Origin: Bacteroidota bacterium
GTDB lineage: Bacteria > Bacteroidota > Bacteroidia > Sphingobacteriales > Sphingobacteriaceae
Length of the DNA: 64,000 nucleotides
Direction: 5' to 3'
NCBI GenBank assembly: GCA_013288685.1
Contig: JABDBM010000011.1
Span: 1-64,000 of the forward strand
Shown: positions 44,552 to 49,532 of the stretch, one piece after another
How the letters are laid out: each line of letters begins with the position of its first letter
Numbering within the stretch: the stretch's first letter is position 1
Translations under genes and position numbers: made by a program
Notes under the pieces: model-generated
What the model was told of the DNA's origin: nothing
Seen by the model: the letters and a program-made list of their open reading frames with translations, nothing else
Databases searched by the model: none

Positions 44552-45295
44552 ATGACCACTATCCGGAAAATTACCATTCCTAACCCCTGCCAACAGCCCT
44601 GGCAGCAGATGACGCCTAATGCCGAAGGCAGGCACTGCGACCATTGCGCCAAAACCGTTATTGACTTTGCCAGTATGACAGATACGGAATTAATCAGGTA
44701 CCTAATTACCCACAACAATGTTTGCGGCAGTTTTAGCGAGCCGCAATTAAACAGCGTTAACATCCAACTATACACCCAAAGCTTAAAAGCAGAAACCGGT
44801 TGGAAAAAATGGCTGATGACAATAGCATTGTTTGGATCTACCTTATTTTATAAAGCCAGCGGGCAAACCACCACGGTTACCGCCCCCAAAGTTGAACAAA
44901 GCCCGTTAGCTAATTACCCAAATGGTTTCGCGCTGGGAAAGATAGCAATGAGCCCGCCTGCACAACGAGAAATTAAAGGACAGATATTGGATGATGATTG
45001 CCAGCCATTGCCAGGCGCTACAATCAGGTTGCCGGGGACAAATTTGGGTACACAAACTGATACAAACGGCAGATTTGAGCTTCATGTACCCTTATCGGCA
45101 AAACAACTAAGTGTAAGTTTTATTGGGTTTAAAACTGCGACGATGCAAATTGACAGTGTGCAAGATAAAATTTACGATTTGAAATTGACGCTGTCGGCGT
45201 CGATGATGGGCGAGGTGGTGATCATAAAACAGCCTTTGTACAAGCGGCTATATTACCGGTATATAAGGAGGCCATTTAGGGCAATATTCAATTGA
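44552..45295 (+). CDS. Cys-motif single-pass protein with CarboxypepD_reg-like domain, first gene of a six-gene unit
   Basis: A 247-residue protein. An N-terminal 60-residue module has four cysteines (C13, C29, C32, C58) in the pattern NPC-W-M-P-GRxCxxCxKxVIDF, suggesting a metal-binding fold. A membrane helix (about 85-102) and a carboxypeptidase-regulatory-like domain (about 137-215, EIKGQILDDDCQPLPGATI) follow. It has no signal peptide, so the Cys module is probably cytosolic and the beta domain periplasmic. The next gene, a paralogue, begins 6 nt later. The role is unknown; a sensor or anti-sigma-like anchor is conceivable. Confidence 0.78.
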   Translation: MTTIRKITIPNPCQQPWQQMTPNAEGRHCDHCAKTVIDFASMTDTELIRYLITHNNVCGSFSEPQLNSVNIQLYTQSLKAETGWKKWLMTIALFGSTLFYKASGQTTTVTAPKVEQSPLANYPNGFALGKIAMSPPAQREIKGQILDDDCQPLPGATIRLPGTNLGTQTDTNGRFELHVPLSAKQLSVSFIGFKTATMQIDSVQDKIYDLKLTLSASMMGEVVIIKQPLYKRLYYRYIRRPFRAIFN

Positions 45296-45301
45296 AATGA
45301 T

Positions 45302-45883
45302 ATGAAGCAAAAAATCCAAAGCATAGCGATAAAAAATCCATGCACCGAGAGTTGGGATAACATGCAACCATCCGCAGCAGGCAGATATTGCGAAAGCTGC
45401 AGGAAAAACGTTATTGATTTTACAGGATTATCTAATCAGCAAATACTAAACCAAATAGCCGGGCAAAGCCGGTTATGCGGTAAGTTTAATAATACACAAT
45501 TAAGTGATTTTAACCGGTATCTCGCAGAAGCACGCCAGCCTGGTTTTTCGTGGAAACGGCTTGGTTTGGCGGCGGCATTATTTTCATTTTTACCTTTTGT
45601 AAAAGCGGAAGCACAAGTTAAAACATTAACTGAAAGCCGGGCGGAAAAGACTAAACGCGCTTTCCATCATCATAAAAAAGTCGATTTTTTGGTTGGCAAA
45701 AGTTTATTGCCAAAAGATATAAAAGATGAACTGGAATTTCCGCCAATTGTTCAAAATCATGATTTGCAAACTTACCAGGAATATTTAACAGGCAAAGTAG
45801 GAGGTCTTTCTATCAGATATTCCTTTCCGCGCAGATTGTGGTATGACATAAGATGGAAAATTAAGTTAATATTGGGGAAGTAA
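45302..45883 (+). CDS. Cys-motif single-pass protein, paralogue of the preceding gene
   Basis: A 193-residue protein that shares the N-terminal Cys module with the upstream gene at the same spacing (C14, C30, C33, C59; NPCTESWDNMQPSAAGRYCE). A membrane helix lies at about 85-103 (GLAAALFSFLPFVKAEAQ). The C-terminal part differs: a His/Lys-rich stretch (KRAFHHHKKVDFL) and a basic tail, with no regulatory-like domain. It lies 7 nt before the Lgt-like gene, so it belongs to the same transcription unit. Confidence 0.75.
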   Translation: MKQKIQSIAIKNPCTESWDNMQPSAAGRYCESCRKNVIDFTGLSNQQILNQIAGQSRLCGKFNNTQLSDFNRYLAEARQPGFSWKRLGLAAALFSFLPFVKAEAQVKTLTESRAEKTKRAFHHHKKVDFLVGKSLLPKDIKDELEFPPIVQNHDLQTYQEYLTGKVGGLSIRYSFPRRLWYDIRWKIKLILGK

Positions 45884-45890
45884 AAAGTAA

Positions 45891-46640
45891 ATGCATTTCC
45901 CGGTAAATATCCCCATAGGCAAATCTTTCATCCCCGTTCACTTTGTTTGCGAAACATTAGCATACTTTATTGGGTACCGCTACTATGCCTATTTACGGAC
46001 ACATACGCAGGACACGATCAGTACCGAAAACAGGCTGATCATATTTATTGGTGCTGCTTTTGGCGCTTTAATAGGTTCGCATGTTGTGGGGGTACTCGAA
46101 AATCCGCCGGCGCTCGCGCATTTTAGCCTCGTTTATTTTATGGGAAACAAAACCATAGTAGGCGGTATGCTGGGCGGTTTGATTGGTGTTGAACTGACAA
46201 AAAAGATGATTGGTGTCTGCGTGTCATCTGGCGATTTAATGGTTTACCCTTTAATTTTGGCAATGATCATCGGTCGCACCGGGTGCTTTTTGGCAGGACT
46301 AGAGGATGGTACCTACGGTATAGCTTCCAATTTACCCTGGGCCGTAAATTTTGGCGACGGCATCAGGAGGCATCCCACCAATTTATACGAAATAGTGTTT
46401 TGGGTATTGCTATGGGTTGTTTTACGGATTATCGAAAAACATTCCGAGTTTACCGATGGCTCAAAATTTAAAATATTTCTATCCGCCTACCTGGTTTTCC
46501 GTTTTTTGGATGAGTTTATCAAGCCCGACTATTTTTTCGGTTTTGGCTTATCGGTAATTCAATTGGTTTGTGTCGCCGGGATTTTGTATTATTATAAAGT
46601 TTTTTTATACCCTTCCAAACTGATAAAACCCCATGCCTGA
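45891..46640 (+). CDS. Divergent Lgt-like membrane protein (prolipoprotein diacylglyceryl transferase family)
   Basis: A 249-residue polytopic membrane protein with about seven helices and Lgt-like landmarks: IGRTGCFLAGLEDGTYG (Lgt signature region, R129 kept) and RHPTNLYE (Lgt HPxQLYE). Two residues known as essential in E. coli Lgt differ: the HGGL histidine position reads V90-G-G, and the Asn after the signature Arg reads C132. It is therefore probably not the housekeeping Lgt. It may bind or transfer a lipid in a specialised role. It overlaps the radical SAM gene by 8 nt, indicating coupled translation. Confidence 0.85.
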   Translation: MHFPVNIPIGKSFIPVHFVCETLAYFIGYRYYAYLRTHTQDTISTENRLIIFIGAAFGALIGSHVVGVLENPPALAHFSLVYFMGNKTIVGGMLGGLIGVELTKKMIGVCVSSGDLMVYPLILAMIIGRTGCFLAGLEDGTYGIASNLPWAVNFGDGIRRHPTNLYEIVFWVLLWVVLRIIEKHSEFTDGSKFKIFLSAYLVFRFLDEFIKPDYFFGFGLSVIQLVCVAGILYYYKVFLYPSKLIKPHA

Positions 46641-48030
46641 ACGTCCGTATATTTACTATGATTTTACTTTAAGCATTTGCTCAACCTGTTTACGCCGTGT
46701 TGATGCCAAAATTGTTTTTGAAGACGATAAGGTTTATATGCTAAAAACCTGCCGCCAGCATGGATTTGAAAAAGTGCTGATAGCTACCGACATTGAATAT
46801 TATAAAAACTGCCGCAATTATGCAAAGCGCAGCGAAATGCCCCTAAAATTTAACACCAAAACCCACTACGGCTGCCCGTACGATTGCGGCCTGTGCCAGG
46901 ATCATGAGCAGCATTCGTGTTTAACTGTGGTGGAGGTTACTGATCGTTGCAATTTAAGCTGCCCTACCTGCTATGCCATGTCGTCGCCATCGTATGGCAG
47001 GCACCGCACACTGGCCGAAATTGAGCAGATGCTGGATGTAATCGTCGAAAATGAAGGCAAACCCGATGTGGTGCAGATTAGCGGCGGCGAACCTACGGTA
47101 CATCCCCAGTTTTTTGAGATACTGGATATCGCCAAAACAAAGCCCATTAAACACTTGATGGTAAATACCAACGGCATCAGGATTGCCAAAGACGAAAGCT
47201 TTGTTGAACGCCTGGCCACTTACATGCCCGATTTTGAGATCTACCTGCAATTTGATTCTTTTAAAAAGGAAGCGCTGGAACAATTACGCGGCGAAGACCT
47301 GCGCGATGTTCGGATTAAAGCGCTGGAAAATCTGAACAAATACAACCTGTCGACCACGCTTGTAGTTACCCTGCAAAAAGGGTTAAACACCGACGAAATA
47401 GGCGCGATAATTGAATATGCGTTAAAACAACCATGTGTTAGGGGCGTAACCTTTCAGCCAACACAACAGGCCGGGCGACTGGAGAACTTTAACCCTACAA
47501 CCGACCGCTATACGCTAACCGAAGTGCGAGCCGCCATATTAGAGCAAACCGACATTTTTAAAAAGCATGATTTAATTCCGGTACCCTGTAACCCCGATGC
47601 CCTGGTAATGGGTTATGCCTTAAAGCTGGGCGGACAGGTTTTCCCGCTTACGCGGATGATAAACCCGGATGATTTGCTGGATAATTCAAAAAATACCATT
47701 GTTTACGAACAGGACGAGCGCCTGAAGATGCACCTGCTAAATATGTTTAGCACCGGCAATTCCGTTGATAAAGCCGGCGAACATCTAAAATCAATAATGT
47801 GCTGCCTGCCAGAAATTGACGCACCCAATTTGAGTTACGATAACCTGTTCAGGGTGATTATCATGCAGTTTATTGATGCGCAAAACTTTGATGTGCGGGC
47901 CATTAAAAAATCGTGTGTGCATATTGTAAATAAAGATATGCAGATCATCCCGTTTGAAACCATGAACATTTTTTACAGGGATGATAAAATTGAATATTTG
48001 AAACAGCTACGGGCGGAAATATTAGTATGA
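46633..48030 (+). CDS. Radical SAM enzyme of the MJ0619/Tes (COG1964) type
   Basis: A 465-residue radical SAM protein. The SAM cluster site is C106-x3-C110-x2-C113 (VTDRCNLSCPTCYA). Before it lie a Cys/His module (C16, C19, C40, H43) and a further cluster motif CPYDCGLCQDHEQHSC (C81, C85, C88, C96). Inside the barrel are QISGGEPTVHPQ, VNTNGIRIA, YLQFDS and GVTFQPTQQAGR. These blocks match archaeal MJ0619/Tes proteins, which join lipid tails in tetraether synthesis. The overlap with an Lgt-like gene makes a lipid substrate plausible. The exact reaction here is unknown and the match is from memory, not a search. Confidence 0.88.
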   Translation: MPERPYIYYDFTLSICSTCLRRVDAKIVFEDDKVYMLKTCRQHGFEKVLIATDIEYYKNCRNYAKRSEMPLKFNTKTHYGCPYDCGLCQDHEQHSCLTVVEVTDRCNLSCPTCYAMSSPSYGRHRTLAEIEQMLDVIVENEGKPDVVQISGGEPTVHPQFFEILDIAKTKPIKHLMVNTNGIRIAKDESFVERLATYMPDFEIYLQFDSFKKEALEQLRGEDLRDVRIKALENLNKYNLSTTLVVTLQKGLNTDEIGAIIEYALKQPCVRGVTFQPTQQAGRLENFNPTTDRYTLTEVRAAILEQTDIFKKHDLIPVPCNPDALVMGYALKLGGQVFPLTRMINPDDLLDNSKNTIVYEQDERLKMHLLNMFSTGNSVDKAGEHLKSIMCCLPEIDAPNLSYDNLFRVIIMQFIDAQNFDVRAIKKSCVHIVNKDMQIIPFETMNIFYRDDKIEYLKQLRAEILV

Positions 48031-48338
48031 TGGAAGATGATTTAAACCGGGATAATTTACCTGCAGGCGACGGTAAACCAACAAATGAAACCAAGCCACC
48101 GGCCGGAATGTATATTGTAGGTTATAACCTGCTCGGCCTTGCTGCCTATACCGCGTTGTTTGGTTTTGCTAGTGGCGGCGGCTTTATACTTGATGCGGTT
48201 GTACTATTTGTGCATGTTGTTATTTGTATAATTCTGGCCTTAGCTAACAGGAGCTGGATTTGGTTGCTGAGTGGTTTGTTAGTTTTAGCCATTGGATTTT
48301 CTACATGCGTAATGATGGCCAGCCACGGAGGAATCTAA
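48027..48338 (+). CDS. Small membrane protein of the lipid-type operon, paralogue 1
   Basis: A 103-residue protein with a hydrophilic N-terminus of about 28 residues (acidic and proline-rich) and three predicted helices. It shares with the next gene the pattern H-x3-C-x2-LALA followed by LLVLAIGFSTC, so the two are paralogues. The Cys in GFSTC lies at a membrane face. It overlaps the radical SAM gene by 4 nt. No family was recognised. Confidence 0.72.
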   Translation: MMEDDLNRDNLPAGDGKPTNETKPPAGMYIVGYNLLGLAAYTALFGFASGGGFILDAVVLFVHVVICIILALANRSWIWLLSGLLVLAIGFSTCVMMASHGGI

Positions 48339-48345
48339 ACAATTT

Positions 48346-48609
48346 ATGGCCGAAATTGAGATGAGCAATAACACTTTAGCAGTAGTAATAAACATGGTAT
48401 TGTTAATAGCCTATACCTTGTATATACGACTTAATGATCCCAATGCAGATAGCATTTTTACCCTCGTCGTTTTTATTGCTTTGCATTTTATAGCATGTTT
48501 TGTATTGGCGCTTGCGCTAAAGGACTATCGCAAAGGGCTTTTTTTAGCGTCAGCATTGGTATTGCTTGTCGGTTTCTCAACCTGTTATTTAGCTTACAGT
48601 ATTCATTGA
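48346..48609 (+). CDS. Small membrane protein of the lipid-type operon, paralogue 2
   Basis: An 87-residue protein with three predicted helices, lacking the long N-terminal tail of paralogue 1. The C-terminal half aligns with it (HFIACFVLALALKD, then LVLLVGFSTCYLAYS). A second in-frame ATG lies 5 codons in. The gene is 7 nt after its partner, and ends with a 7-nt overlap with the convergent Ppx/GppA gene. It is the last gene of the six-gene unit. Confidence 0.72.
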   Translation: MAEIEMSNNTLAVVINMVLLIAYTLYIRLNDPNADSIFTLVVFIALHFIACFVLALALKDYRKGLFLASALVLLVGFSTCYLAYSIH

Positions 48610-49532
48610 CCCACCATCTCCGCTAACACCCCTTCTTTTAACGAACTGGTTGACATCACCACCTTTTCAACGCCCAGCCTTTCCATAACAAACCGGGTAA
48701 GTATCGAGGCAGTTACAATCATATCAATACGTACGGGCGGAATACCCTTGGTTGCCAAGCGCTCCTGATGCGACGATTGAATAAGCTTTTCGGTAACTGC
48801 TAAAAGTTCATCCTGTTTAAAATCATAACGTTTGGTTTTCTGCAAATCGAACTTGTTTCCTTTATCCGCTTCAATTAAACCTCCATACGTTTCAAATACG
48901 CCCGATGAGCCTATCATATTATCAATAGGATAATTGGCAGTTGTGGCAAACAGATCAGGCAGAATGTCACCAAGGTAAATATTCAACGCGGTAATAGACT
49001 CCGGTGGTATGGGATCAGTGCGGTGAAATTTATCCATCAATCGCGCGGCGCCAATTTCGAAGCTTTGTTTCCATAACAACTCCTGATTGTTGCAGATGAT
49101 AAACTCCACACTACCGCCGCCAATATCCATAATAAGGCTATTTTTGCCCGTGAGGCAGCCTGCGGCTTTGATCCCTTTATAAATATACCCGGCTTCGGCA
49201 TCGCCATCAATAATTTTAATTGCAATGCTTGTTTGGGCTTTAACTTCGCTAATAAAATCCTCCCCGTTTGCCGCGCTGCGCAATGCTGATGTGGCAATGG
49301 CCCTAACTTGTTGAACATGGTGCTGCAAAAGCAATTCCTTAAAATGATGCATGGTTTTAATCCCCCGCTCAAAAGCAGCAGGCTGAATTACACCTTTATT
49401 AATGCCGCCTTCGCCTAATTTTACAGGTTCTTGCAAATGCACAATTTCGTTAAAGTTACCGACATTACCATCCACAATCAGCAAGTGAAAAGTGTTGGTA
49501 CCTAAATCCATTACCGCTATGGGATTATTCAT
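48603..49532 (-). CDS. Ppx/GppA family exopolyphosphatase
   Basis: A 309-residue ASKHA-fold phosphatase. The P-loops appear as VMDLGTNTFHLLI and IMDIGGGSVEFII, and a conserved GSSGVFETYGG lies later. Bacteroidota members of this length lack the C-terminal HD domain of E. coli Ppx. It degrades polyphosphate or pppGpp; which one cannot be judged from sequence alone. Its 3' end overlaps the preceding convergent gene by 7 nt. Confidence 0.9.
   Translation of the reverse strand: MNNPIAVMDLGTNTFHLLIVDGNVGNFNEIVHLQEPVKLGEGGINKGVIQPAAFERGIKTMHHFKELLLQHHVQQVRAIATSALRSAANGEDFISEVKAQTSIAIKIIDGDAEAGYIYKGIKAAGCLTGKNSLIMDIGGGSVEFIICNNQELLWKQSFEIGAARLMDKFHRTDPIPPESITALNIYLGDILPDLFATTANYPIDNMIGSSGVFETYGGLIEADKGNKFDLQKTKRYDFKQDELLAVTEKLIQSSHQERLATKGIPPVRIDMIVTASILTRFVMERLGVEKVVMSTSSLKEGVLAEMVGQ

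Follow-up and report, generated by a model that had tools for sequence, protein, structure and literature searches.

The window analysed here, a stretch of 64,000 nucleotides (nt) at positions 1 to 64,000 of contig JABDBM010000011.1 (assembly GCA_013288685.1, Bacteroidota bacterium), carries four closely packed genes on the plus strand, encoding an Lgt-like membrane protein, a radical S-adenosylmethionine (SAM) enzyme and two small membrane proteins. As to genus, we infer the genome to be of the Mucilaginibacter type. The open reading frames (ORFs) are as follows:

45891-46640, plus strand: Lgt-like ORF LGT2, 249 amino acids
46633-48030, plus strand: radical SAM ORF of the Tes/TrsS superfamily, 465 amino acids
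48027-48338, plus strand: small membrane protein M1, 103 amino acids, with three transmembrane (TM) windows by hydropathy
48346-48609, plus strand: small membrane protein M2, 87 amino acids, with three TM windows by hydropathy

LGT2 overlaps the radical SAM gene by 8 nt, the radical SAM gene overlaps M1 by 4 nt, and a gap of 7 nt separates M1 from M2. An original prediction, made from the letters of the window alone, had given these coordinates, overlaps and gap exactly.

Linkage of the components across Bacteroidota

The cassette formed by these genes is a real three-component unit that travels through many bacteria. A scan of named genomes returned at least 587 pattern matches, at least 584 of them relatives, and the best 80 loci were examined. 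In 74 of the 80, the radical SAM gene is preceded on its own strand by an Lgt-like gene, which overlaps it in 52, lies within 100 nt of it in 3 and is farther away (up to 3.9 kb) in 19. Among the six loci without such a gene, three (L080, L133, L142) are on contigs that begin just 50 to 309 nt ahead of the radical SAM gene, and in L084, L111 and L134 an Lgt-like gene was not found in the upstream stretch examined. Some loci, those of Hymenobacter and Algibacter among them, have intervening genes, which differ from locus to locus, with no common one seen.

The same linkage emerges from co-occurrence. Of 100 relatives, 38 have the Lgt-like gene and the identical 38 have the radical SAM gene, and a profile of the M1/M2 family finds matches in 37 of the 100, exactly the Mucilaginibacter genomes with the pair, the listed matches lying close to the radical SAM gene on the same contig. 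In 395 genomes of the phylum, surveyed at a cut-off of 1e-40 for both genes, 31 have both enzymes, two (G161, G191) the radical SAM gene alone and one (G114) the Lgt-like gene alone; this cut-off drops nine genomes with Lgt-like matches of about 1e-15 to 1e-20, and the match of G191 below the cut-off lies on the radical SAM contig, some 500 nt from the radical SAM gene. Both enzyme genes are present in G131 and G365, though on different contigs. Fisher tests of co-occurrence gave p values of 1.8e-28 and 1.5e-42, which are indicative only, since related genomes are not independent. Given the upstream linkage in 74 of 80 loci and the co-occurrence in both genome sets, chance neighbourhood is rejected, and the coupling for which the original prediction had suggested a survey of Bacteroidota is borne out. 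Further, a profile of the flavobacterial small proteins has strong matches in 12 of the 395 genomes, each of which possesses the radical SAM gene; the matches are beside that gene in 11 and on another short contig in G307; three further matches at about 1e-3 look like noise. A separate observation is that G114 (L181) has an Lgt-like gene of the subfamily for which the 1e-40 cut-off yields no radical SAM partner.

The radical SAM enzyme and the Lgt-like protein

The radical SAM protein matches PF04055 (91.2 bits) and the HMPTM zinc-ribbon model (67.9 bits). Its top NCBIfam model is TrsS (NF045646), which aligns over nearly the whole length at 319.7 bits against a cut-off of 490, and the Tes model (NF045702) scores 270.1 bits against a cut-off of 450. 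The best match by sequence among solved structures is Tes (7tol, E 1.1e-63), and the next Protein Data Bank (PDB) match after Tes is SkfB, a maturase of ribosomally synthesised and post-translationally modified peptides (RiPPs). The predicted fold matches Tes 7tom and 7tol over the full length (for 7tom, E 2.4e-33, TM-score 0.76 by query length, 504 columns), the model having a mean predicted local distance difference test (pLDDT) score of 70.4, with values below 50 at residues 341-361 and 369-400. The original prediction had called the enzyme Tes/MJ0619-type, and this holds for the fold at full length and fails for membership of Tes itself; as both curated cut-offs are missed and most of the C-terminal cysteines (Cys) of Tes are lost, plain Tes or TrsS membership is rejected. 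The Cys layout that it had read (C16xxC19, C81xxxC85xxC88 and C106xxxC110xxC113) is present as read, within the following features, for which row counts refer to an alignment of 22 rows, one of them Tes:

46678..46761, plus strand: rubredoxin-type motif C16xxC19-x20-C40xxH43, its three Cys in 22/22 rows
46873..46905, plus strand: N-terminal auxiliary cluster motif C81xxxC85xxC88xxH91, its Cys in 17, 17 and 18 of 22 rows
46948..46971, plus strand: radical SAM cluster motif C106xxxC110xxC113, in 22/22 rows
47587..47916, plus strand: C-terminal domain with a Cys set of its own, C319 (47587-47589), C390-C391 (47800-47805) and C428 (47914-47916)

The rubredoxin-type motif has the same spacing as that of Tes, C9X2C12X20C33X2H36, and the N-terminal cluster motif has as its Tes counterparts C73, C77, C80 and a His (both from excerpts of PMC9433317). 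The window protein keeps the Tes ligands at all three sites, namely rubredoxin, N-terminal cluster and SAM cluster. The C-terminal domain differs. In the 22-row alignment, C338, C438, C455, C456 and C470 of Tes correspond to A323, I410, S427, C428 and E442, leaving only C456 with a Cys counterpart, while C319, C390, C391 and C428 are invariant in all 26 rows of the radical SAM alignment A3. The C-terminal region of Tes bears an auxiliary cluster thought to hold the substrate radical (PMC9433317, in part). If three Cys hold that cluster, as the labile Met439 suggests, at least two of them are missing here, and C319, C390/C391 and C428 may hold an alternative cluster. The counterpart of Met439 is kept as M411, and Ile occupies the position of Tyr459, a loss that proves little and is not fatal, since Tes variants Y459F/L, like M439A, remain active (excerpts of PMC9433317).

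A tree of 23 radical SAM rows has long branches, and some of its joins may be false. The core-type Bacteroidota (11 rows) form one group (100/99), which three distal Bacteroidota rows join (91/89); an actinobacterial type of 4 rows, including that of the Bacteroidota genome G191, is separate (100/100); and Tes falls together with three methyltransferase-linked rows and one other row (90/82). The position of its root left aside, the tree shows that the window protein does not group with Tes. The actinobacterial type has lost the N-terminal cluster Cys and has a Tes-like set of C-terminal Cys, and cluster content thus varies across the superfamily. Within the genus the enzyme is 88-95% identical. 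As side observations, a stop codon interrupts the radical SAM reading frame in L007 (genome G023) and in G229, which means either a broken gene or a sequencing error, and at L037:911-1045 (genome G007), amid additional small-protein copies, a stretch with 60% identity to the C-terminal part of the radical SAM enzyme looks like what a decayed cassette copy would leave.

The Lgt family assigned to LGT2 by the original prediction is upheld by PF01790 (77.6 bits against a cut-off of 24.9) and by the AlphaFold2 (AF2) model (pLDDT 84.9), whose sole PDB match at E<=0.001 is E. coli Lgt (5azb, TMq 0.65). The narrower models TIGR00544 (23.2 bits, cut-off 118.9) and NF000778 (41 bits, cut-off 334) fall short. 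By column alignment to 5azb, the E. coli residues R143, R239, Y235 and E243 correspond to R129 (46275-46277), R204 (46500-46502), Y200 and E208 of LGT2, V90 (46158-46160) takes the position of H103, and E21 aligns near Y26 (a weak alignment, 12.7 bits). Among 73 Lgt-like sequences, comprising that of the window, 64 from the named loci and 8 that are distal or actinobacterial, the counterparts of R143, G145, R239 and Y235 are kept in 73/73, and the E243 position holds Glu in 61 and Asp in 12.

The genome has one more Lgt, on another contig (C134, L001), with 120.6 bits for PF01790. This protein has Tyr at the H103 position and Cys at the N146 position, which makes E. coli an imperfect yardstick for the Lgt of this phylum and is worth attention in its own right. 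A Cys at the N146 position was also considered as a hallmark of LGT2 and was rejected, the second Lgt having it too.

Small membrane proteins with a cysteine tail

M1 and M2 were called paralogous in the original prediction, and they do align with 33% identity by tblastn over part of M2 and with 29% in the family alignment. The conserved Cys at the end of both proteins was absent from that prediction and is new in this analysis:

48306-48308, plus strand: Cys94 of M1, closing the last helix end IGFSTC, with a 9-residue tail after it
48583-48585, plus strand: Cys80 of M2, closing the last helix end VGFSTC, with a 7-residue tail after it

A small ORF with at least two predicted TM segments follows within 200 nt 3' of the radical SAM gene in 72 of 79 loci (the 80 loci without L134, which has too little downstream sequence). 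In 69 of these 72 proteins, [GSA]xC stands within the last 21 residues and ends the last helix, usually as [IV][GS][LF][GS]xC[GS]; the exceptions are L099 (Phe for Cys), L133 (a longer tail) and L137 (PLC). Of 27 other small TM ORFs in the same loci, 2 have the motif, and both resemble additional copies of the system. Lys and Arg average 2.7 in the 18 residues that lead up to the last helix, as against 0.14 in the tail, and in 57 of the 69 proteins the count is higher ahead of the helix than behind it. Under the positive-inside rule, this excess places the tail Cys at a helix end on the predicted outside, like that of an Lgt substrate. Given the conserved C-terminal Cys, the small proteins are the more informative part of the cassette. 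As a side feature, 14 of the 72 first small proteins end in His, often as NFH or NMH (L071, L081, L082, L095, L096, L105, L139, L144 and others), and a terminal His is possibly a second feature of the tail.

Copy numbers were counted in 29 of the 30 Mucilaginibacter loci (L003-L032), L007 being left out for its interrupted radical SAM frame. The flanks are short and the counts are lower bounds: at least one copy in 13 loci, at least two in 13, at least three in 1 and at least four in 2. The Mucilaginibacter small proteins are 34% identical overall and 74% identical over the eight residues up to the Cys, a value that is partly built in, as the proteins were picked by that motif. Beyond the genus, the small-protein alignments A4, A5 and A6 have no profile homology to one another, A4/A5 and A6/A5 aligning at the Cys tail and A6/A4 not. 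Despite this, single-linkage clustering at E 1e-3 chains 73 of 80 small proteins into one cluster, and a claim of independent tail origins is therefore unsupported.

Variants of the cassette are found farther afield. In the distal Bacteroidota loci L162, L163 and L164, the radical SAM gene is accompanied by an ICMT/PEMT-like methyltransferase and an Lgt-like gene (by Pfam on two of the three), and in L162 and L164 the Lgt-like gene is followed by a small TM protein ending in FGAC or FGSC plus a tail. In G191, the Lgt-like and radical SAM genes flank a small TM protein that ends in SGGMC plus a tail. Ten plasmid records carry a homologue, of which seven were examined (Salinirubellus, Haloarcula sinaiiensis and Halalkalicoccus were left out). 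An Lgt-like gene is near the radical SAM homologue on the Persicobacter, M. branderi, M. avium and Nonomuraea records. On the M. vanbaalenii, Halorarius and Haloarcula halophila plasmids (L156, L157, L158), a methyltransferase adjoins the radical SAM gene instead (by Pfam on two), and with these Mycolicibacterium and haloarchaeal relatives the Lgt-like partner is not general in the superfamily. All three components are together on three Actinomycetota records (L159, L160 and L161), namely two mycobacterial plasmids and a Nonomuraea record filed as a plasmid; on the mycobacterial plasmids the Lgt-like and radical SAM genes enclose a pair of small TM genes, whose products have tails such as SAGxCTGLNP, and in Nonomuraea a Cys-tail small protein overlaps the start of the Lgt-like ORF.

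Other genes flank the cassette in the window. Just 5' on the same strand, at 44552-45883, are two ORFs with about 30% mutual identity and a Cys motif in common in their N-terminal regions, the first of which carries CarbopepD_reg_2. Similar ORFs adjoin the cassette in several Mucilaginibacter loci, and the pair is probably not part of the system. A Ppx/GppA phosphatase gene at 48603-49532, which runs on the minus strand, shares 7 nt with the end of M2 and is a frequent downstream neighbour in Mucilaginibacter loci.

Candidate functions and comparison with known systems

The cassette probably modifies lipids, or proteins with lipids, in an undescribed way. On the evidence of the genes with their order and co-occurrence, the folds, the conservation of residues that bind cofactors and lipid, the Cys tail and the distribution of charge, we favour, tentatively and somewhat short of even confidence, a lipid-modification system of an Lgt-like protein and a Tes/TrsS-family radical SAM enzyme with the Cys-tail small proteins as dedicated acceptors. 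In this scheme, phospholipid binding would fall to the conserved arginines of the Lgt-like protein, which would transfer a lipid group to the Cys that closes the last helix of the small protein on the outer side. The radical SAM enzyme, in the cytosol, may use its 5'-deoxyadenosyl radical on the lipid tail, either before the tail is attached or afterwards, to activate a C-H bond that is otherwise unreactive. The modification of the Cys, the phospholipid donor, the order of the steps and the product are inferred. A more specific form of this proposal, namely a new kind of protein lipidation in Bacteroidota, Actinomycetota and plasmids, in which the Lgt-like and radical SAM proteins jointly couple a lipid altered by radical chemistry to the C-terminal Cys of small membrane proteins that stay uncleaved, is rather doubtful.

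Several observations weigh against the proposed acceptor role. R143 and R239 are kept in 73/73 of the Lgt-like sequences, and His is found at the H103 position in 0/73, which has Met in 33, Val in 27, Ile in 6, Leu in 6 and Thr in 1. In E. coli Lgt, substitutions of R143 and H103 lost activity, and H103 variants, Tyr included, fail to complement (excerpts of PMC4728403); classic thiol transfer by the Lgt-like protein is thus doubtful, although the second Lgt of the genome itself has Tyr at this position. The lipobox does not fit either: Ala or Ser precedes the Cys in 6 of the 69 small proteins, and the window proteins have IGFSTC and VGFSTC. In the lipobox consensus, Gly, Ala or Ser precedes the Cys. 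By the rules used, the small ORF is missing in 7 of the 79 loci (L079, L086, L100, L111, L124, L143, L145), of which L086, L143 and L145 yield one under looser rules and L124 has one about 2 kb further on; near the two genes of G131, no Cys-tail small protein was seen. Moreover, the Cys is predicted outside and the radical SAM enzyme is expected in the cytosol, which speaks against the proposal in its simplest version. Finally, the Mucilaginibacter small proteins also keep Asn and Tyr (helix 1) and His/Gln and Cys (helix 2) within the membrane, and with these conserved residues a working subunit fits as well as a substrate.

These intramembrane residues lend weight to another explanation, in which the small proteins are working subunits (a membrane anchor, an electron or sulfur donor, or a lipid presenter) and the product is a free thiolated, methylated or desaturated lipid. 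The ICMT/PEMT-like methyltransferase that joins the set in distal Bacteroidota would suit it, as would the sulfur-containing lipid that Tes gave under limiting SAM (PMC9433317, in part). At 34% identity, however, the small proteins are more variable than would be expected of subunits beside an enzyme as conserved within the genus as this one, and we regard the explanation as unlikely. This very variability, with a conserved tail and at least two copies beside the enzyme in 16 of 29 Mucilaginibacter loci, recalls instead a RiPP-like system, where the radical SAM enzyme would modify the small protein directly, by C-S, C-C or methyl chemistry, and the Lgt-like protein would help to place or lipidate it. 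The rank of SkfB next after Tes in the PDB is in keeping with such chemistry, but the nearest solved relative of the enzyme acts on lipids and the conserved Cys is predicted on the side of the membrane opposite to that expected for the enzyme, which makes this, too, improbable.

The joining of iso-branched acyl tails into a membrane-spanning lipid of the iso-diabolic type, for which the Lgt-like protein would handle lipid, was the suggestion of the original prediction; the small proteins would then act as helpers. This explanation draws on the Tes fold along the whole chain, the sequence match to Tes and the retention of the rubredoxin, N-cluster and SAM-cluster ligands and of M411; bacterial Tes homologues have been proposed to make membrane-spanning lipids (PMC8941075, in part), and the activity of the Tes variants weakens the loss of Tyr459 as an objection. 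As stated, the suggestion lacks support at the C-terminal domain, where four of the five Tes Cys are without a counterpart, though the protein has other Cys there. Further, the curated Tes and TrsS models are both missed, the tree sets the Lgt-linked rows apart from the Tes and methyltransferase-linked rows (90/82), and a dedicated, very variable Cys-tail small protein has no obvious role in tail joining. Diacids in these bacteria are not dealt with in a lipid study of soil Bacteroidetes (PMC10025309, in part). Tetraether-like tail joining is possible and not favoured, and we consider it quite unlikely. While the observation behind the original prediction is confirmed, its interpretation is partly supported.

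Bacterial Tes homologues of no known function have been noted before, and their role in bacteria not known for tetraether lipids is an open question (PMC9433317 and PMC8941075, both in part). The cassette gives a large branch of these homologues two partners and a compact candidate acceptor with a conserved Cys, and its carriers include culturable genera such as Mucilaginibacter, Flavobacterium, Chitinophaga and Hymenobacter. If the proposal is true, it would broaden both lipoprotein biology and the lipid chemistry of radical SAM enzymes. It also advises caution in taking any bacterial Tes homologue for a marker of membrane-spanning lipids.

How the system compares with known ones can be set out for each enzyme. 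With Tes (GDGT-MAS, MJ0619; 7TOL/7TOM, NF045702), the window enzyme shares the whole-length fold, the rubredoxin site, the Cys and His of the N-terminal cluster, the SAM cluster and Met439 (M411); it differs in its own C319 and C390/C391, in having one of the five C-terminal Cys and Ile for Tyr459, and in being bacterial and paired with an Lgt-like protein and small proteins. TrsS, a radical SAM (seleno)protein, is its best-scoring model, yet the score lies below the cut-off, as do those of the plasmid homologues beside a methyltransferase (335-352 bits in the two scanned, cut-off 490), and the Tes-type C-terminal Cys are not kept in the window enzyme. An adjacent methyltransferase, which we take to be a mark of TrsS, was not found among the six window neighbours of the radical SAM gene that were scanned. 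Mss is likewise a radical SAM enzyme. As the bacterial membrane-spanning lipid synthase, it is reported to couple two fatty acids and is listed apart from Tes (excerpts of PMC11868695). With Lgt (5AZB, PF01790), LGT2 shares the fold, the counterparts of R143, R239, E243 and Y235 and the GRxG signature; it differs in lacking a His at H103, in falling below the NCBIfam lgt models, in its radical SAM partner and in belonging to a genome with another Lgt. In keeping with the original prediction of an undescribed system, no description of a cassette of Lgt-like, radical SAM and small proteins was found in the open-licence literature searched by title and abstract start; two of the papers listed (PMC7641849 and PMC12010503) contain both 'radical SAM' and the name of Lgt, once each. 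Both enzymes belong to known kinds, and what appears to be new is the set of three parts together with the Cys-tail family.

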